The translations under genes were made by a program, and so were the position numbers. Shown piece by piece: positions 18,795 to 24,368 of a stretch of 33,359 nucleotides of DNA (position 1 is its first letter; every line of letters starts with the position of its first letter). This stretch comes from an uncultured Chloracidobacterium sp. Its GTDB lineage: Bacteria > Acidobacteriota > Blastocatellia > Chloracidobacteriales > Chloracidobacteriaceae. The notes beneath the pieces are model-generated. The model did not search any database and had not been told where the DNA came from. It saw only the letters and a list, made by a program, of their open reading frames with translations. Location: positions 1 to 33,359 of the forward strand of contig CALCKX010000090.1 in the NCBI GenBank assembly GCA_937966115.1, in the 5' to 3' direction.

Positions 18795-20822
18795 CTACTT
18801 CGTTTCAGCGGTTTGCTCGCGCCGCAGCTTCGCCTCGATGCGGTTGATTTCCTCCAGGTCGGTCGCCAGGCTGCGGGCCAGCTTCCACTGCCGGCGGGCG
18901 CCTTCCAGGTCGCCCAGGCGCTCCAGCACGTCGCCCAAATGATCATTGAGCGTGGCGTTGCGCCGGTCATAGCTCAGCGCCTGCTCGATGTACTGCTTGG
19001 CCAGATCGAGACGATTCTGCCTGAAATAAACCCAGCCCAAGCTGTCGAGAAACGAGCTGTTGGTCGGCTCGATGTTGACCGCCCGCTGCACGAGCTGGAG
19101 GGCCTCGTCCAGCCGCTCGTTGCGCTCCGCCAGAAAGTAGCCCAGGTTGTTGAGCGCCGTCGGGTTGTCCGGATCCAGCGCCAGGGCCGCGCGCAGGAGC
19201 TGCTCCGACTCGGCATACTGCTTGCGGCGCTCCAGAATCGAGCTCAGGGTGACGAGGTAGGCGATGTTTTTCTTGTCGTAACTGACTGCCTGGCGCGCCG
19301 ACCGCTCGGCGTCCTCGAAGCGGTTGGCGTCGCTCAGCACGATGGCTTTCATCTGCGCTACTTCGCCGGCGTCGTCAGCTTCCTCGGAAAGCTTTTTCAG
19401 CTCCTTCATCGCCTGGTCAACCTGCCCCAGCCGGGACAGCGATTGGGCTTCCAGGTACACGAACTGCCGCTCGCCGGGGAAGCGCTGGCGCGCCGCGCGC
19501 GCCGCCTTGAGCGCCTCTTCATGCTTGCCCTCGCCGCGCAACCCCTCGATGACGAGCAAATCCGCCAGCGTGCTTTCCGGCCCGAGCAGTTGCCGCATGC
19601 GCTCATACGTCGCCCGCTCGCGCTCCGGCTTTCCGGCGGCTTTGTAGGCGGCGGCGATGCGCATCAGGATCAGTTCGGCGCGCTCGCGCTGACTCTCGCT
19701 CACGGAATTGTCGGGATTGGACACGCTCCGCAGCGCGGCTTCATAGGTCGCGACGGCCTCGTCCAGGCGCCCAAGCTCGACGAGCGTTTCCGCCAGGGCA
19801 TACTGCTGCGCCAGCGTCTCGGTGACATCCTGCCCCGCCAGCGCCTGCCGCAGCGTGCTGACCGCCTCCTCGCGGCGGCCGCTCCGGCGCTGCGATTGGG
19901 CCAGAATCGAGAGCGCCTCCGGCTGATTCGGGCGCTCGGCCAAAATGCGCTTGACCTGCGCCTCCGCCTCGGCGTACCGCCCGCCGCGCATGAGCGCTTC
20001 GGCATAGCTCAGGATGAGCCGCAGGTTGTTGCCGTTTTCTTCCAACAGCTCCTTGAGAACCTCGATGGCCTCGGTCGTCTGCCCCGAATAGAGCAGCGCC
20101 TGCGAAAGCTGATAGCCCCACTGCGGATTCTCGCCGCTCAGGAGATACGCCTGGCGGGCCGTGTCGGCCGCGTCCCGATAGCGCCGCTTCCGAAAATACA
20201 GCTCCGTCGCGGCGGCGAACTCTTCCGGCCCGCCTTGGTTCGCGCCAATCAGCTTGGCATAGGCGGACAGGGCGTTTTCGGTATCGTTCAAGTCGCGGTA
20301 GAGCCGCCCCAGCAGCCGGTGCACGTCGAGGTTGAGCGCGTCCAGCTTGGCCACGACCTCGAAGGCGGCCACGGCCTCGCGCGCCTTCTCGCGATTGAGC
20401 GAAGCGCCAAGCGCCTGGGCATACAGCAACCGCCCCAGCAGCCAGTGCGCCATGGCGTCCTCCGCATCCAGCGCCACGGCCTGGCGGGCGTGAAGCTCCG
20501 CTTCGCGCAAGTTTCGCCCCTCGAGATAGAGGTTCCCCAGCTCGACGTGCGCCGCCGCCGCGCCCGGGTCAAGCTCCAGCGCTTCCTTGAAAGCCGCGAT
20601 GGCGTTGAGCGGATCCGCCTGCGCGATGTAGCGCCGCGCTTGAAGGAACTTCTCATAGGCCCTGAGACGCTGCTCGCGTGACAAGGGGGCCGGCGCGCCA
20701 GCGGCGGGCGATTTGACCGGCGCCGACTTGGGCGATTGTTGCGGAGCCGCCGGCGCCGTCATCGAGCTGACGGCGATCAAGCAACCCGAAAGCCATAGGA
20801 CGCGGTAGGGAACTGACTTCAT
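18795..20822 (-). CDS. Secreted or membrane-anchored TPR protein
   Basis: A 675-residue protein from ATG 20822, with GGAG seven bases upstream. The hydrophobic segment near residues 7-25 with AAPQQ after it is a likely signal peptide or anchor. A Pro/Ala-rich linker (about 27-47) leads into about 16 TPR units, including the well-kept pair ALNNLGYFLAERNERLDEAL and FLDSLGWVYFRQNRLDLA. This pattern is found in proteins at the cell envelope that act as docking scaffolds. It precedes the LolC/E-type permease (83-bp gap) and is the first gene of the TPR-permease-HEAT run. I do not know its specific partner. Confidence 0.87.
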   Translation of the reverse strand: MKSVPYRVLWLSGCLIAVSSMTAPAAPQQSPKSAPVKSPAAGAPAPLSREQRLRAYEKFLQARRYIAQADPLNAIAAFKEALELDPGAAAAHVELGNLYLEGRNLREAELHARQAVALDAEDAMAHWLLGRLLYAQALGASLNREKAREAVAAFEVVAKLDALNLDVHRLLGRLYRDLNDTENALSAYAKLIGANQGGPEEFAAATELYFRKRRYRDAADTARQAYLLSGENPQWGYQLSQALLYSGQTTEAIEVLKELLEENGNNLRLILSYAEALMRGGRYAEAEAQVKRILAERPNQPEALSILAQSQRRSGRREEAVSTLRQALAGQDVTETLAQQYALAETLVELGRLDEAVATYEAALRSVSNPDNSVSESQRERAELILMRIAAAYKAAGKPERERATYERMRQLLGPESTLADLLVIEGLRGEGKHEEALKAARAARQRFPGERQFVYLEAQSLSRLGQVDQAMKELKKLSEEADDAGEVAQMKAIVLSDANRFEDAERSARQAVSYDKKNIAYLVTLSSILERRKQYAESEQLLRAALALDPDNPTALNNLGYFLAERNERLDEALQLVQRAVNIEPTNSSFLDSLGWVYFRQNRLDLAKQYIEQALSYDRRNATLNDHLGDVLERLGDLEGARRQWKLARSLATDLEEINRIEAKLRREQTAETK

Positions 20823-20896
20823 GGTGAAGCTCCAAGGGGTCGCAGCCAAGGAAAAGCGCGCCAGACTGAGCTGTGCTGGCAAGGGCGCGCGATGGG

Positions 20897-20902
20897 TTAT
20901 AA
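20897..20902 (-). promoter_or_regulatory. Possible -10 element of the TPR-permease-HEAT operon
   Basis: The 168 bases between the regulator gene and the TPR gene contain, on the minus strand, TTATAA (AT-rich island in otherwise GC-rich sequence). No good -35 stands 17 bases upstream, so this is a weak call. I see nothing else in this gap. Confidence 0.25.
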
Positions 20903-20990
20903 ATCTAGCCGACTTGGCGCGGCATGGGAATGCTCTCGGCGCAGCTCGCCAGCGCCCCAAGCGCCTCCGCGCAAGACGCCCGCGCATCCG

Positions 20991-21974
20991 CTACGGGGCC
21001 GACTCCGCGGCGGGCGGCGGCGCGGAAGCCGCGCCCGCCGACGGAAACTCGCGCCGGATGTACTCGACGAAGTCCGTCAAGCCGCCGGCGTGAAAGTCAT
21101 GGATGAAAATGCTGTGCACCTGGGGGTCGGCGAAAGCCGCCCCGCCAATCACAACGCGGGCCCCGCGCTGCCGCGCCGTCCGGTAAAAGCGCCCGTAGTC
21201 GCGCCGCAAGCGCTCCAGGTCATGGACGATAGTCGCCGAAATGCAAACCAGTTGCGGCGAAAACCGCTCTACCGCGTCGGCAAAGGAAAACAGCGGCGTG
21301 TTTGGGCCGAGCGAGACCGCCCGCCAGCCTTCGGCCTCCAGCGTCTCGATGACCATTTGCAGCGCGATTTCGTGCAAGTCGCCCTCTGGACAGCCGCACA
21401 AAGCCACGCGCCCCTGCGCTGGCGCGCGTGGCAGCCGGCGATGGAGTTGCTCCGTCGCCGCCAGCGTCACCTGCGAGGCCAAGTGCTCTTCCCAAATGTT
21501 GAGCTCCCCGCGTCGCCAGCGCTCGCCAATCAGGTGCAGCGCCGGCGTCAGGATGCGCTCCTTCGACTCGATGGCCGAGATCCCGCTCTGCCACGCCCGC
21601 TCTAGCAAGGCCGCGCCAGCCGCCTCGTCCCCGGCCACGGCAGCCTCGTAATAAAGCGCCTGCAACCGCGACCAGTCGCGACTCGCCAACGCCAAATCAA
21701 GCGCCAAGTCGAGTCGCGCCCCGTCCGGCGGCGCGCCCCCCTGATCGGCGCTCGCGTCAGAGCGCAGCAGCCCGCCGCTTCGCTGAAAGTCGAGCAAAGC
21801 CTGCAGGGTGAAGCGCCGGTGCCCGCCGGGCGTCCGAAGACAAGCCAGCGCCCCGCTGTCGCTCCAGCGCTTCACCGATGACTCGCTGACCGCCCACATC
21901 CGGGCAACCTCGGCCGTGGAATAGGTTCGACCCTGACTTGAGATGGGCGACGCGGGGCGTTTTGAACGAGGCAC
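20991..21974 (-). CDS. CarH-like regulator: BldC/MerR-type helix-turn-helix plus adenosylcobalamin-binding domain
   Basis: A 327-residue protein from GTG 21974; a TTG at 22067 would add 31 residues but would run over operator-like repeats. Residues about 16-65 are a winged helix-turn-helix of the excisionase/BldC/MerR kind (YSTAEVARMWAVSESSVKRW ... TPGGHRRF). Residues 90-175 are the helical cap and 188-300 the Rossmann-like B12 fold. The B12 residues match Thermus CarH in spacing: Trp153 eleven residues before the Glu163-His164 pair (CarH Trp131, Glu141-His142). Asp199-x-His201 supplies the lower cobalt ligand, and VVIGG comes later. CarH-type proteins repress carotenoid genes in the dark and release DNA when light breaks the Co-C bond. 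The divergent isoprenoid operon and nearby carotenoid gene agree with that role; light control itself is inferred. Confidence 0.85.
   Translation of the reverse strand: MPRSKRPASPISSQGRTYSTAEVARMWAVSESSVKRWSDSGALACLRTPGGHRRFTLQALLDFQRSGGLLRSDASADQGGAPPDGARLDLALDLALASRDWSRLQALYYEAAVAGDEAAGAALLERAWQSGISAIESKERILTPALHLIGERWRRGELNIWEEHLASQVTLAATEQLHRRLPRAPAQGRVALCGCPEGDLHEIALQMVIETLEAEGWRAVSLGPNTPLFSFADAVERFSPQLVCISATIVHDLERLRRDYGRFYRTARQRGARVVIGGAAFADPQVHSIFIHDFHAGGLTDFVEYIRREFPSAGAASAPPPAAESAP
21958..21968 (+). repeat. Operator-like motif, copy 1 (CGTTTTGAACG)
   Basis: An 11-base motif differing by one base from the copy at 22009-22019. It overlaps the first codons of the regulator gene if GTG 21974 is the start. 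It belongs to the set of three YGTTTTGARCG copies within 235 bases of each other. It could be an autoregulatory site, but it is also coding, so it is the weakest of the three. Confidence 0.35.
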
Positions 21975-22004
21975 GAGAGGATGACCTAGTCTCGACGTAA
22001 AGAA

Positions 22005-22022
22005 TGAGCGTTTTGAGCGTTT
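22005..22022 (+). promoter_or_regulatory. Tandem 9-bp direct repeat, probable operator of the CarH-like regulator
   Basis: TGAGCGTTT occurs twice head to tail without a gap (22005-22013 and 22014-22022). It lies just upstream of the regulator's GTG start. A TTGACA-like -35 for the minus strand sits at 22087-22092. Direct, not inverted, repeats are what CarH and BldC-type proteins are known to bind. This makes it a good candidate for autoregulation. Confidence 0.5.
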
Positions 22023-22170
22023 CAAGAGAGCCAAATCCACTCTAAGCCACCCAGCATGCCAGGTCAAGTCTTTACCAACGCTTTCCTGTCAACTATCTAA
22101 CTGCCTATTTTGCAGAGCTTAGCCGCAAAGCCGCCGCGCCGCCGCGCAAGCCGCGAAAAAAATCCATCAA

Positions 22171-22204
22171 TTGACTTGACTGTTTTGAGCGTTTTTCATA
22201 AGCT
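22171..22204 (+). promoter_or_regulatory. Probable promoter with operator in the spacer, facing the repeat elements and isoprenoid operon
   Basis: TTGACT at 22176-22181 is followed 17 bases later by TAAGCT (22199-22204), a modest -35/-10 pair; a second TTGACT begins at 22171. The spacer region holds TGACTGTTT (22177-22185) directly followed by TGAGCGTTT (22186-22194), the same tandem 9-bp layout as at 22005-22022, with two changes in the first half. A repressor bound here would cover the -35 and spacer. The transcript would run rightward through both structured repeats. Confidence 0.45.
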
Positions 22205-22254
22205 CTCCAACGTAAGCTAGCCGCCCACGCCGGCGCGACTGGCGACGATATTTG

Positions 22255-22357
22255 AGAGCTTGGCGCGCATCGCTCTTGTTTGGAGGCTTGGAACGACGAC
22301 TCCGGGGGGAGTTTTCAAGTCTCTCGACGCTTGGGGGGTTGTGGTGCGCGTCAAAAC
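22255..22357 (+). repeat. Structured direct repeat, copy A (candidate RNA element)
   Basis: A 103-base segment repeated at 22448-22550 with only two differences. As plus-strand RNA it can fold into a closed domain: TTGGCGCGCA (22260-22269) pairs with TGCGCGTCAA (22345-22354) over ten pairs, one G-U. Inside, CTTGGAA (22287-22293) pairs with TTTCAAG (22313-22319), and ACTCC (22299-22303) with GGAGT (22308-22312) around a GGGG loop. AGAGC/GCTCT at the 5' end could form a competing hairpin. Weaker similarity to copy B continues to about 22381. Open frames through it change amino acids at both differences, so I do not regard it as coding. Confidence 0.75.
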
Positions 22358-22447
22358 TTCGGTCATCGGCGAATCGCCGACGCCGGTCAGGCCGGGGACG
22401 CGGCGTCCCAGTCGGGCACGCGCCCGCCGGAGCCGGCCTTGACATGT
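22358..22447. other. Spacer between the two structured repeats, with hairpins
   Basis: The spacer carries several GC-rich inverted repeats: TCGGCGA/TCGCCGA around 22367-22381, GGGACG-CGG-CGTCCC around 22395-22409, and CGGGCACGCGCCCG around 22413-22426. A TTGACA at 22439-22444 stands just before copy B but lacks a convincing -10. I see no gene here. Confidence 0.45.
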
Positions 22448-22550
22448 AGAGCTTGGCGCGCATCGCTCTTGTTTGGAGGCTTGGAACGACGACTCCGGGG
22501 GGAGTTTTCAGGTCTCTCGACGCTTGGGGGGTTGCGGTGCGCGTCAAAAC
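22448..22550 (+). repeat. Structured direct repeat, copy B (candidate RNA element)
   Basis: This is the second copy of the element at 22255-22357, offset by exactly 193 bases. The two differences are A to G at 22511 and T to C at 22535. The first falls in the middle helix and turns a U-A pair into U-G, so pairing is kept; the second is outside the predicted helices. Sequence after 22550 resembles copy A for about 24 more bases with eight differences. The sharp drop of similarity after base 22550 shows that the conserved unit ends where the outer helix ends. Confidence 0.75.
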
Positions 22551-22666: not shown

Positions 22667-22697
22667 AACTCGCTTTGCATAACTCGCTTCGTATAGG
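22667..22697 (+). promoter_or_regulatory. Direct repeats and -10 element before the TPR-polyprenyl synthase operon
   Basis: AACTCGCTT occurs at 22667-22675 and 22681-22689 (14-base period). TATAGG follows at 22692-22697 as a -10-like box. The position of the -35 (about 22669-22674) falls in the first repeat and does not match the consensus, so an activator or a repressor site is likely. Confidence 0.4.
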
Positions 22698-22698
22698 A

Positions 22699-22718
22699 TG
22701 CGGGACCGCGTTCCCGCA
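22699..22718 (+). promoter_or_regulatory. Leader hairpin before the TPR gene
   Basis: TGCGGGA (22699-22705) and TCCCGCA (22712-22718) form a perfect 7-bp hairpin with a six-base loop. It lies just after the -10-like TATAGG and 25 bases before the ATG at 22744. It could stabilise the message or be a protein site. It has no T tract. Confidence 0.35.
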
Positions 22719-22743: not shown

Positions 22744-23316
22744 ATGACATCATTCAAGCTTCGAGTCGTGACGGCGGCGACGCGCTTCGCCCTGCGCTAT
22801 CCGCGTCTGACCTGGCGGGTGGCGCAGCGCATAGCTCCGCTGGCAGCCTGGGCGATGCGCCAGTTTCGGCGCTTGCGCCCGGCGCCGGAGGAGCAGGCGT
22901 TGCGGCAGCTGGCGCGCGAGCTGGCGCAGGCGACCGCCGGGAGCGAGACCGACTGGCAAGATGTGTACGCGCTGGGCGAGCTGTGCATCCGCCAGCGCGC
23001 CTATGCGGAAGCCGCCCGGCACTTCCAGCGCATCACGGCGGCCGAAGCTGGCGATCGCGAGCTTCGGCGCTCAGCCGCCTCGTGGCTGGGGCGGGCGCTC
23101 GAATACGCCGGCGACATTCCCGGCGCGCAGGCGGCTTACCGCAACTATCTGCGCGACTTTCCCGAAGTGAGCGGCTTCGAGCGGCAGCGCCTCGAGCGCC
23201 GCTTGGCTGACTTAGGCGTATCGCCGGCCCTGCCTGGCGAGGCGCCCCCCCTGGCGACAGTCACGCCGGCTGGCGACCGTCCAAGCCGACTTCCCGCCAG
23301 GAGACAAAAGCTATGA
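22744..23316 (+). CDS. TPR-type protein coupled to polyprenyl synthase
   Basis: A 190-residue protein with an AAAGG ribosome binding site eight bases before ATG 22744. Residues 1-45 are basic, aromatic and amphipathic (RYPRLTWRVAQRIAPLAAWAMRQFRR), which may bind membrane. Residues about 70-150 contain two to three TPR-like helix pairs (VYALGELCIRQRAYAEAARHFQ, then ASWLGRALEYAGDIPGAQAAY). The tail is Pro-rich. The stop overlaps the next start as ATGATGA, so it is co-translated with the prenyl synthase and may position it at the membrane; that is inference. I recognise no named family. Confidence 0.75.
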   Translation: MTSFKLRVVTAATRFALRYPRLTWRVAQRIAPLAAWAMRQFRRLRPAPEEQALRQLARELAQATAGSETDWQDVYALGELCIRQRAYAEAARHFQRITAAEAGDRELRRSAASWLGRALEYAGDIPGAQAAYRNYLRDFPEVSGFERQRLERRLADLGVSPALPGEAPPLATVTPAGDRPSRLPARRQKL

Positions 23317-24368
23317 TGACCCTGCCCGCCAATGCGGCGACAACTAAAAATGGACTGTCGGTCAGCCCCGTCGGAGCGACCGTGCCGGTCGCCTTTCGGC
23401 CGCTCGCGGAGCGGGCGCAAGCGATTGCCAAAGTTATTGACGCCGCGATTGCGCGGGACTTGGACGAGGTGACGCAGCCGGAGCTGCGCCAGGCCGCGAC
23501 CTATCTCTTCGAGGGCAAGGGCAAGCGGCTGCGGCCATTCTTGGTCATCACGACGGCTGAGGCCGCCGGCGGCGACTTTGAAGACGCCATCCCGCCGGCG
23601 CTGGCGGTCGAGTACCTGCACAACTTGTCGCTCATCCACGACGACATGATGGACGGCAGCGCGGAGCGCCATGCGCAGCCCACGCTGCACACGCGCTTCG
23701 GGCTGGGACTTTCCCTGTTGGTTGGGGACCTGCTCTACGCCAAAGCCGTCGAGCAAGCCTCGCGCATTCGTCGCCACGCGCTGCAAATGGTCCATGTCCT
23801 GGGCGAAACCGCCAAGCAGATGTGCTTTGGCCAGTTCGACGACCTGAGCTTCGAGCGGCGACTCGACCTCGATATTGACGACTACCTGCGCATGGCGTCG
23901 CGCAAGACCTCCGCTCTCTATCGCGCGAGTTGCATTTTCGGCATGCTCGCCGCCGACGCCGACCCCGACCGCCTCGCCGCCATGGCAAGCTTCGGGGAAA
24001 AAATCGGCACGGCGTTTCAAATCTGGGATGACGTGCTTGACCTGCAAGCTGACCCGCTGCGCCTGGGCAAGCCCGTCGGGCTTGACATTCAGGACGGTAA
24101 AAAGACGCTGATCGTCATTCATTTTCTCAAGCACGCCCGCCCGACGGCGCGCAAGCGCTTCCTTGAGCTGCTCGGGAAGCGCGACCTCAACGGCGAGCTG
24201 CAAGAGGCGATTGCGCTGCTCGAGGAAGCTGGCTCGATTGCCTTCGCCCGCGACTTGGCGACCGAATATCTCGTCGAAGCCAAGCGCCACCTGGCCGTTC
24301 TGCCGGCCAACCCGCAGCGGGCGCTGCTGGACTCGTACGCCGACTTCATGCTGCAACGGCGGCACTAG
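23313..24368 (+). CDS. Polyprenyl (geranylgeranyl/long-chain) diphosphate synthase
   Basis: A 351-residue trans-prenyltransferase that lengthens an allylic diphosphate with isopentenyl diphosphate. It has the first Asp-rich motif DDMMD at 110-114, the second DDVLD at 239-243, GKGKRLRP at 68-75 for IPP binding, and QDGKKT after the second motif. The product length cannot be read safely: there is no bulky aromatic block just before the first motif, which argues against a strict farnesyl synthase. Carotenoid, quinone or undecaprenyl-type precursors are possible. The first 25 residues are poorly conserved. The gene converges on the AtpI-like gene. Its position beside a CarH-like regulator suggests carotenoid supply. 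Confidence 0.92.
   Translation: MMTLPANAATTKNGLSVSPVGATVPVAFRPLAERAQAIAKVIDAAIARDLDEVTQPELRQAATYLFEGKGKRLRPFLVITTAEAAGGDFEDAIPPALAVEYLHNLSLIHDDMMDGSAERHAQPTLHTRFGLGLSLLVGDLLYAKAVEQASRIRRHALQMVHVLGETAKQMCFGQFDDLSFERRLDLDIDDYLRMASRKTSALYRASCIFGMLAADADPDRLAAMASFGEKIGTAFQIWDDVLDLQADPLRLGKPVGLDIQDGKKTLIVIHFLKHARPTARKRFLELLGKRDLNGELQEAIALLEEAGSIAFARDLATEYLVEAKRHLAVLPANPQRALLDSYADFMLQRRH

Follow-up and report, generated by a model that had tools for sequence, protein, structure and literature searches.

Genes and features at the locus

The window, which is the whole stretch of 33,359 nt that was analysed, belongs to an assembly of 2.8 Mb that is 85% complete. The region of interest lies between a regulator gene and an isoprenoid gene, where a preliminary description had placed two nearly identical structured elements. 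The neighbours are as that description named them. The regulator has a B12-binding domain in addition to its MerR-type domain, and a polyprenyl synthase gene follows a small gene whose TPR match is weak. The features of the locus are listed below, and the relatives that were compared with the window are designated by G numbers (genomes) and L numbers (loci).

20991..21974, minus strand: B12-binding MerR-type regulator, ortholog of CtMerR (PDB 8JBS/8JBT), likely start GTG 21974
22005..22023, plus strand: operator-like tandem 9-bp repeat TGAGCGTTTTGAGCGTTTC, directly upstream of the regulator start, in 10/10 family genomes
22176..22204, plus strand: promoter-like sequence P1 (TTGACT, 17 nt, TAAGCT), exact pattern at the locus in 9/10 genomes
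22177-22195: second operator-like tandem repeat, within the P1 spacer
22210..22252, plus strand: 5' domain of the putative transcript with its putative start, a variable hairpin in single-sequence folds only
22255..22357, plus strand: structured RNA element, copy 1 (repeat, fold, model matches, covariation)
22260-22273/22341-22354: outer helix of copy 1
22282-22292/22314-22324: middle helix of copy 1
22298-22303/22308-22313: apical helix of copy 1
22304..22307, plus strand: apical GGGG loop in TCCGGGGGGA, copy 1, invariant in 12/12 rows
22327..22338, plus strand: internal-loop motif ACGCTTGGGGGG, copy 1, first 11 letters invariant in 12/12 rows
22366..22380, plus strand: small hairpin 3' of copy 1 (TCGGCG-AAT-CGCCGA), found by eye
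22448..22550, plus strand: structured RNA element, copy 2, tandem duplicate
22520..22531, plus strand: internal-loop motif, copy 2
22694..22700, plus strand: TAGGATG, -10-like box, possible separate promoter of the TPR/GGPPS genes, in 10/10 genomes
22744..23316, plus strand: small protein gene, weak TPR match below the Pfam cut-off
23313..24368, plus strand: polyprenyl (geranylgeranyl-type) diphosphate synthase gene

The regulator matched PDB 8JBS with an E-value of 2.3e-159, and the protein of G001 matched it with an E-value of 1.7e-191. By sequence, the regulator of the window is the ortholog of the green-light photoreceptor CtMerR (WP_157850694; PDB 8JBS, 8JBT), which is very close to the G001 protein. 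Its sequence is that of an AdoCbl-binding MerR regulator as found in CarH/LitR regulons, with a match to the NCBIfam model TransRegCarH that stays below the cut-off (73 of 400 bits). The Wx9EH motif of CarH-type photoreceptors, given in the excerpt of PMC8156234, is present in the window's regulator with the same spacing when judged by eye. The available part of PMC11796333 reports that CtMerR binds AdoCbl and describes a light response of the cobalamin domain. The same part states that the DNA-binding domain of CtMerR is merely 25% identical to that of TtCarH and suggests an alternative DNA site, and it names no operator or target.

The open reading frame listed for the regulator extends to 22067 (20991-22067, minus strand), and its start is probably 93 nt too early. 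GTG 21974 is the likely start because of homology and because chain 8JBS opens with MPRSK at that codon. With this start, the first operator-like repeat falls outside the coding region. Regulator relatives at E 1e-30 were identified in 23 of 396 genomes of the phylum, and 17 of these genomes are outside the family. A large TPR-repeat gene (18795-20987, minus strand) is codirectional with the regulator and lies behind it. TPR matches were also observed about 1 kb behind regulator relatives in L124, L127, and L128, which may reflect an old neighbourhood or just the commonness of TPR repeats.

Two copies of a conserved structured RNA

Both 103-nt copies are present as described, differ at two bases, and start 193 nt apart. 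Ungapped extension yields a 127-nt pair (93%) in which the mismatches lie mostly outside the 103-nt unit. The plus strands of the copies fold with energies of -48.2 and -49.3 kcal/mol (z of -4.1 and -3.8), and 0/200 dinucleotide shuffles were equally low. Each copy takes a single closed form: the outer helix has 14 bp, the middle helix has about 11 bp, the apical hairpin is CUCC-GGGG-GGAG, and ACGCUUGGGGGG is a stretch of the 3' side. The outer helix is thus longer than the 10 bp that had been proposed, as it joins 22260-22273 with 22341-22354. One of the two differences between the copies had been described as falling in a helix and keeping its pair, which is correct (in the middle helix, U-A becomes U-G). 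The second difference is likewise helical, as G-U is changed to G-C in the outer helix and the pair is kept. In a fold of 395 nt that spans the tandem, copy 1 and copy 2 are also able to pair with each other, which is expected of identical copies in tandem.

The apical motif UCCGGGGGGA and the internal motif ACGCUUGGGGG are G-rich and invariant in 12/12 rows of the alignment, which represent four genera. A switch between the 5' AGAGC and GCTCT had been suggested and did not hold up among relatives. The letters on the 5' side are not constant within the genus, the GCTCT side is short by two bases in G006, and the pairing is missing in G007 and G009. The earlier view that the copies are not coding is supported by short indels (1 and 2 nt) in G008 and G006, which disrupt the reading frame. 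Over 10 units, one plus-strand frame is open in 9/10, another plus-strand frame in 7/10, and one minus-strand frame in 9/10, which is within expectation for G+C-rich DNA of this length (104 nt).

A covariance model (R1) was built on nine copies that belong to the genus plus the one of G008, with G007 and G009 left out. The model recovers the copies of G007 and G009 with E-values of 3e-9 and 1.8e-10. The outer helix in these two other genera has a different sequence and keeps its pairing (G009, 17 bp; G007, 15 bp and one mismatch). In the 12-row alignment (A7), 97.9% of the cells pair. A count by strand gives 361 of 368 cells paired on the plus strand, 72 of them as G-U, and only 290 that would pair on the minus strand. 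Changes on both sides of a pair account for 12 cells over 7 pairs, compared with shuffle means of 2.1 and 1.9 and 0/500 shuffles as high; the alignment was fitted to the structure, and this covariation comes mainly from the two divergent genera plus G008. When the helices are slid out of register, 34-56% of the cells pair versus 97.9%. The measure of further pair types is reached by 57/500 shuffles. G007, G009, and G008 acquire the same shape when folded singly, with z of -4.0, -6.3, and -6.1. The minus strands of G007 and G009 also beat their shuffles (z of -4.9 and -3.9) but are less stable. The compensatory changes fit an RNA on one strand, as do the 72 G-U cells among the 361, which are unpaired on the minus strand. 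The compensatory changes that the preliminary description had named as a check were found, in relatives and upstream of the same genes. The helices are conserved and carry such changes, as is typical of structured noncoding RNAs.

The Rfam 15 scan gave no RNA match to the element in the window (only tRNA elsewhere), in G007, or in G009, which agrees with the earlier statement that its sequence matches no class that could be named. When matches up to E 10 were admitted, three were obtained (13.4, 12.7, and 12.7 bits), all far below the gathering thresholds. A conserved structured RNA that belongs to no class in Rfam 15 is supported by these results. The RNA is also unreported in the titles and opening parts of abstracts on small or noncoding RNAs, riboswitches, and RNA-seq in Chloracidobacterium and on RNA motifs in Acidobacteria (for the latter, among 20 of the 28 papers).

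Some hairpins near the element were noticed by eye. Several relatives have GTCGG..CCGAC hairpins that resemble the one at 22366..22380. The closing letters of the hairpin at 22211-22252 vary and remain complementary in several genomes of the genus (e.g., UGAGCn..nGCUCA), which suggests a second, less conserved RNA domain.

All 10 Chloracidobacteriaceae genomes that were examined carry the RNA by model R1, between the regulator and the GGPPS gene. The tandem arrangement does not belong to the design; it is found in two of them (the window's genome and G002), and the remaining eight have a single copy. In the window's genome the good matches are limited to the two copies, and the remaining matches are of 15-27 nt with E 0.08 or worse. 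BLASTN against 98 genomes gave strong matches in the window's own genome, in 6/6 other genomes of the genus, and in G008, and a weak match in G007. The RNA of G009 was missed by BLASTN, yet it is present beside its regulator. At E 0.1, the BLASTN search matched 23 genomes, comprising nine family members and 14 others with short matches (E 0.001-0.08) that were counted as chance.

Model R1 matched 10 of 162 genomes of the class, all from the family. A second model (R2) matched 8 of 396 genomes of the phylum at E 0.01, comprising six from the family plus G198 and G203, whose matches (E 0.007 and 0.009) were counted as chance. Both of these scans scored few candidates per genome and give rough E-values, so that distant relatives can escape them. 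Among 17 chosen genomes, R2 matched only the three family members included. In G005, R1 gave a further weak match (E 0.0036) that R2 did not recover at E 0.1. An unfiltered scan of 14 loci with regulator relatives in other families gave 16 matches up to E 5, and these were also counted as chance (best E 0.01). The exact core pattern was found in four contigs of a species-level genome collection that may omit records near the window. Their titles name Chloracidobacterium (one), Blastocatellia (two), and Actinomycetota with 'Acidobacteria' in the scaffold name (one). The best reading is that the RNA is structured, noncoding, new, and specific to Chloracidobacteriaceae. It would add a new conserved RNA family to Acidobacteriota.

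The promoter-like sequence P1 and the operator-like repeats

A promoter-like sequence of the form TTGACy GnTTTGnnCGTTTT nnn TAnnnT with 17-nt spacing is located about 100-130 nt upstream of the RNA core. With up to two mismatches, this P1 pattern gave 10 matches in 9/10 genomes, and its reversed controls gave 0 matches. Nine of the matches are exact and lie at the RNA locus, and the remaining one, in G003, adjoins the regulator. The spacer of G005 contains one extra base, which is why this genome has no match. At the level of sequence, the RNA has a promoter of its own as a free-standing small RNA would.

The P1 spacer is conserved beyond the needs of a promoter. A near copy of it, with tandem 9-bp repeats, adjoins the regulator start in 10/10 genomes. 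The two sites are 133-178 bp apart from start to start, and there are a few weaker sites (1-2 mismatches) between or beside them. The tandem form TGNNYGNTTTGNNCGTTTY has 25 exact matches in the 10 genomes, and 20 of these are the two intergenic sites of each genome. The other five are in G001 (two, both within open reading frames), G004 (two), and G008 (one), and the reversed pattern has three matches. Since the two patterns take their letters from these sites, finding them there is by construction, and the information lies in their rarity elsewhere.

The repeat comparison covered 9 of the 14 fetched loci of regulator relatives. Independently of the sites from which the patterns came, the relatives in family f4 (31-37% identical) have the 9-bp repeat upstream in 6/6 loci with at most two mismatches (none in three loci, one in two, and two in one), and the repeat is missing upstream of the relatives in 3/3 loci checked from more distant families. 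A stricter scan of all 14 loci gave matches only in L126, L128, and L129. In L126 and L128, a second repeat immediately follows a promoter-like sequence (TTGACA-18-TAGTAT or TAAGAT) and precedes a gene that, as read from the letters, encodes a secreted fasciclin-like protein. The repeat and the regulator travel together, which supports the identity of the repeats as operators that the regulator would bind.

CarH operators consist of 11-bp direct repeats of the form nAnnTnnACAn according to the excerpt of PMC8156234, and those of the window differ from them with a period of 9 bp and the type TTTGnnCGT. This difference may reflect a different geometry between tetramer and DNA in CtMerR-type regulators. 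L125 and L127, which are loci of family f4, also have the repeat at a promoter-like sequence, at a distance of about 100-260 nt upstream from the regulator relatives, and a hairpin with a T run was noticed by eye within about 100 nt after it. These two loci look as if a very short RNA is made where L126 and L128 have the fasciclin-like gene.

A proposed light-controlled small RNA and its alternatives

The RNA could be a short transcript of its own or the leader of the genes behind it. A scan for terminators behind the RNA found hairpins with T-rich sequence after them that beat shuffled sequences in five of the 10 genomes (G001, G003, G004, G006, and G008), where 0 to 2 of 60 shuffles score as high. 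The scan is not clearly above its 60 shuffles in the window (38), G002 (23), G005 (10), and G007 (7), and it found none in G009. In G007 and G009 the outer helix is followed directly by UUUUUUU (U7) and UAUUUU, respectively, and these U-runs are uncredited because the scan disallows the large loop of the outer helix. TAGGATG, which was chosen by eye before counting, precedes the next gene in 10/10 genomes and is contained in 0-4 of 200 shuffles per genome. A leader is less likely because of the promoter-like sequence of the RNA, the terminator-like hairpins in 5/10 genomes, and TAGGATG in 10/10, and a separate short transcript is favoured as roughly twice as likely.

The preliminary description had likened the elements to tandem riboswitches in a leader or to small RNA sponges. 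Relatives have the RNA upstream of the same genes, and a leader or riboswitch appears less likely than a free-standing RNA. If the RNA acts in cis as the leader of the TPR/GGPPS operon, its closed outer helix would be, or would control, an attenuator; perhaps the RNA would be a riboswitch or a protein-binding site, with isoprenoid synthesis tuned on top of the light-controlled promoter. We consider this unlikely, and it is still the alternative to be taken most seriously. In favour of a leader, the RNA is on the same strand and upstream of the isoprenoid gene in 10/10 genomes, U-rich sequence follows the outer helix without a break in G007 and G009, a clear terminator is lacking in the window, G002, and G005, and the invariant internal and apical loops could form a binding pocket. 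Against it, a conserved -10-like box directly precedes the next gene, and nothing conserved was noticed, short of a systematic search, that would undo the terminator-like hairpins. The alternative AGAGC/GCTCT pairing is also not conserved, and the gene that comes next is not the same throughout (TPR in the genus and G008; GGPPS, with no TPR match, in G007 and G009).

The reading that we favour, with slightly more confidence than doubt, is a new free-standing RNA with its own promoter that is repressed in the dark by a B12 photoreceptor of the CtMerR type. The RNA would be transcribed rightward from the sigma-70-type promoter P1 (22176-22204). The divergently encoded photoreceptor most likely binds the tandem 9-bp repeats in P1 and those before its own gene. 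In the dark, an AdoCbl-bound tetramer would sit on both repeat sites and block both, and in green light it would dissociate, so that the RNA and the regulator would be made. Light probably switches the RNA on because the RNA promoter shares its type of repeat with the control region of the sensor gene. The product most likely stands alone as a small RNA, with a length of about 160-230 nt in the single-copy relatives. Its two invariant G-rich motifs, held by the covarying closed helix, would probably bind a protein or another RNA.

An isoprenoid synthase neighbour and a light-responsive regulator suggest a role in a pigment or photo-oxidative response. The RNA is not strictly tied to photosynthesis because G007 and G009, where the search found no BchH, carry it as well (G008 has a fragment below the cut-off only). 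Hfq is present in 10/10 genomes. A search for exact 11-mer complements of the internal motif gave no conserved target in nine genomes (G008 excluded). One antisense site of the internal loop is common to G001 and G004 only, and the other sites differ.

The RNA might instead act as a sponge that sequesters an RNA-binding protein on its G-rich motifs, of which each unit has two, much as CsrB/RsmZ reportedly titrate CsrA. The invariance of both motifs in 12/12 rows from four genera and the doubling of the unit in two genomes would suit such a role. The GGA triplets are in or at helices and not in open loops, and 8/10 genomes have a single copy, which makes a sponge improbable. The preliminary description had also raised a dispersed repeat. 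A mobile or dispersed (REP-like) repeat or a DNA-level element is suggested by the near-identical tandem copies and their stable inverted-repeat character, and it can be dismissed almost entirely since the genome has just two copies, one fixed locus is kept in all 10 family genomes, and the compensatory changes and G-U pairs fit an RNA from one strand. C. thermophilum B is one of the entries of a REP sequence table in PMC12306157.

The favoured light-controlled small RNA can be compared with known systems. B12 photoreceptors are known for their direct control of carotenoid genes. CarH/LitR regulons of Thermus, Myxococcus, and Bacillus are similar to the window in having a regulator with MerR-type DNA-binding and AdoCbl-binding domains, tandem direct-repeat operators at a sigma-70-type promoter, and an isoprenoid gene nearby. 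They differ in that the conserved divergent target in the window would be a noncoding RNA. The titles and opening parts of abstracts in the CarH/LitR literature contain no case of a B12 photoreceptor that controls a noncoding RNA. It is tentatively proposed, with doubt slightly outweighing belief, that a light-switched noncoding RNA of a new structural class is the main conserved output of the B12 photoreceptor, next to the photoreceptor's own gene, and would relay light to isoprenoid or stress metabolism in Chloracidobacteriaceae; in family f4, which belongs to the same class of bacteria, this kind of putative operator faces the fasciclin-like gene. CtMerR, a structurally characterised light sensor, would thereby gain a concrete candidate operator and target.

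PcrZ of Rhodobacter and PsrR1 of cyanobacteria are reportedly small RNAs linked to light or photosynthesis. The proposed RNA resembles them as a light-linked small RNA of phototrophs, with no match in a comparison made only via Rfam. It differs from them in its proposed control by a B12 photoreceptor and in its presence in the two genomes without a BchH match. PrrF1 and PrrF2 are said to be near-identical tandem small RNA copies under one regulator. The locus differs from theirs in its regulator and in that no separate promoter of copy 2 was noticed, and its tandem form occurs in two of the 10 genomes.
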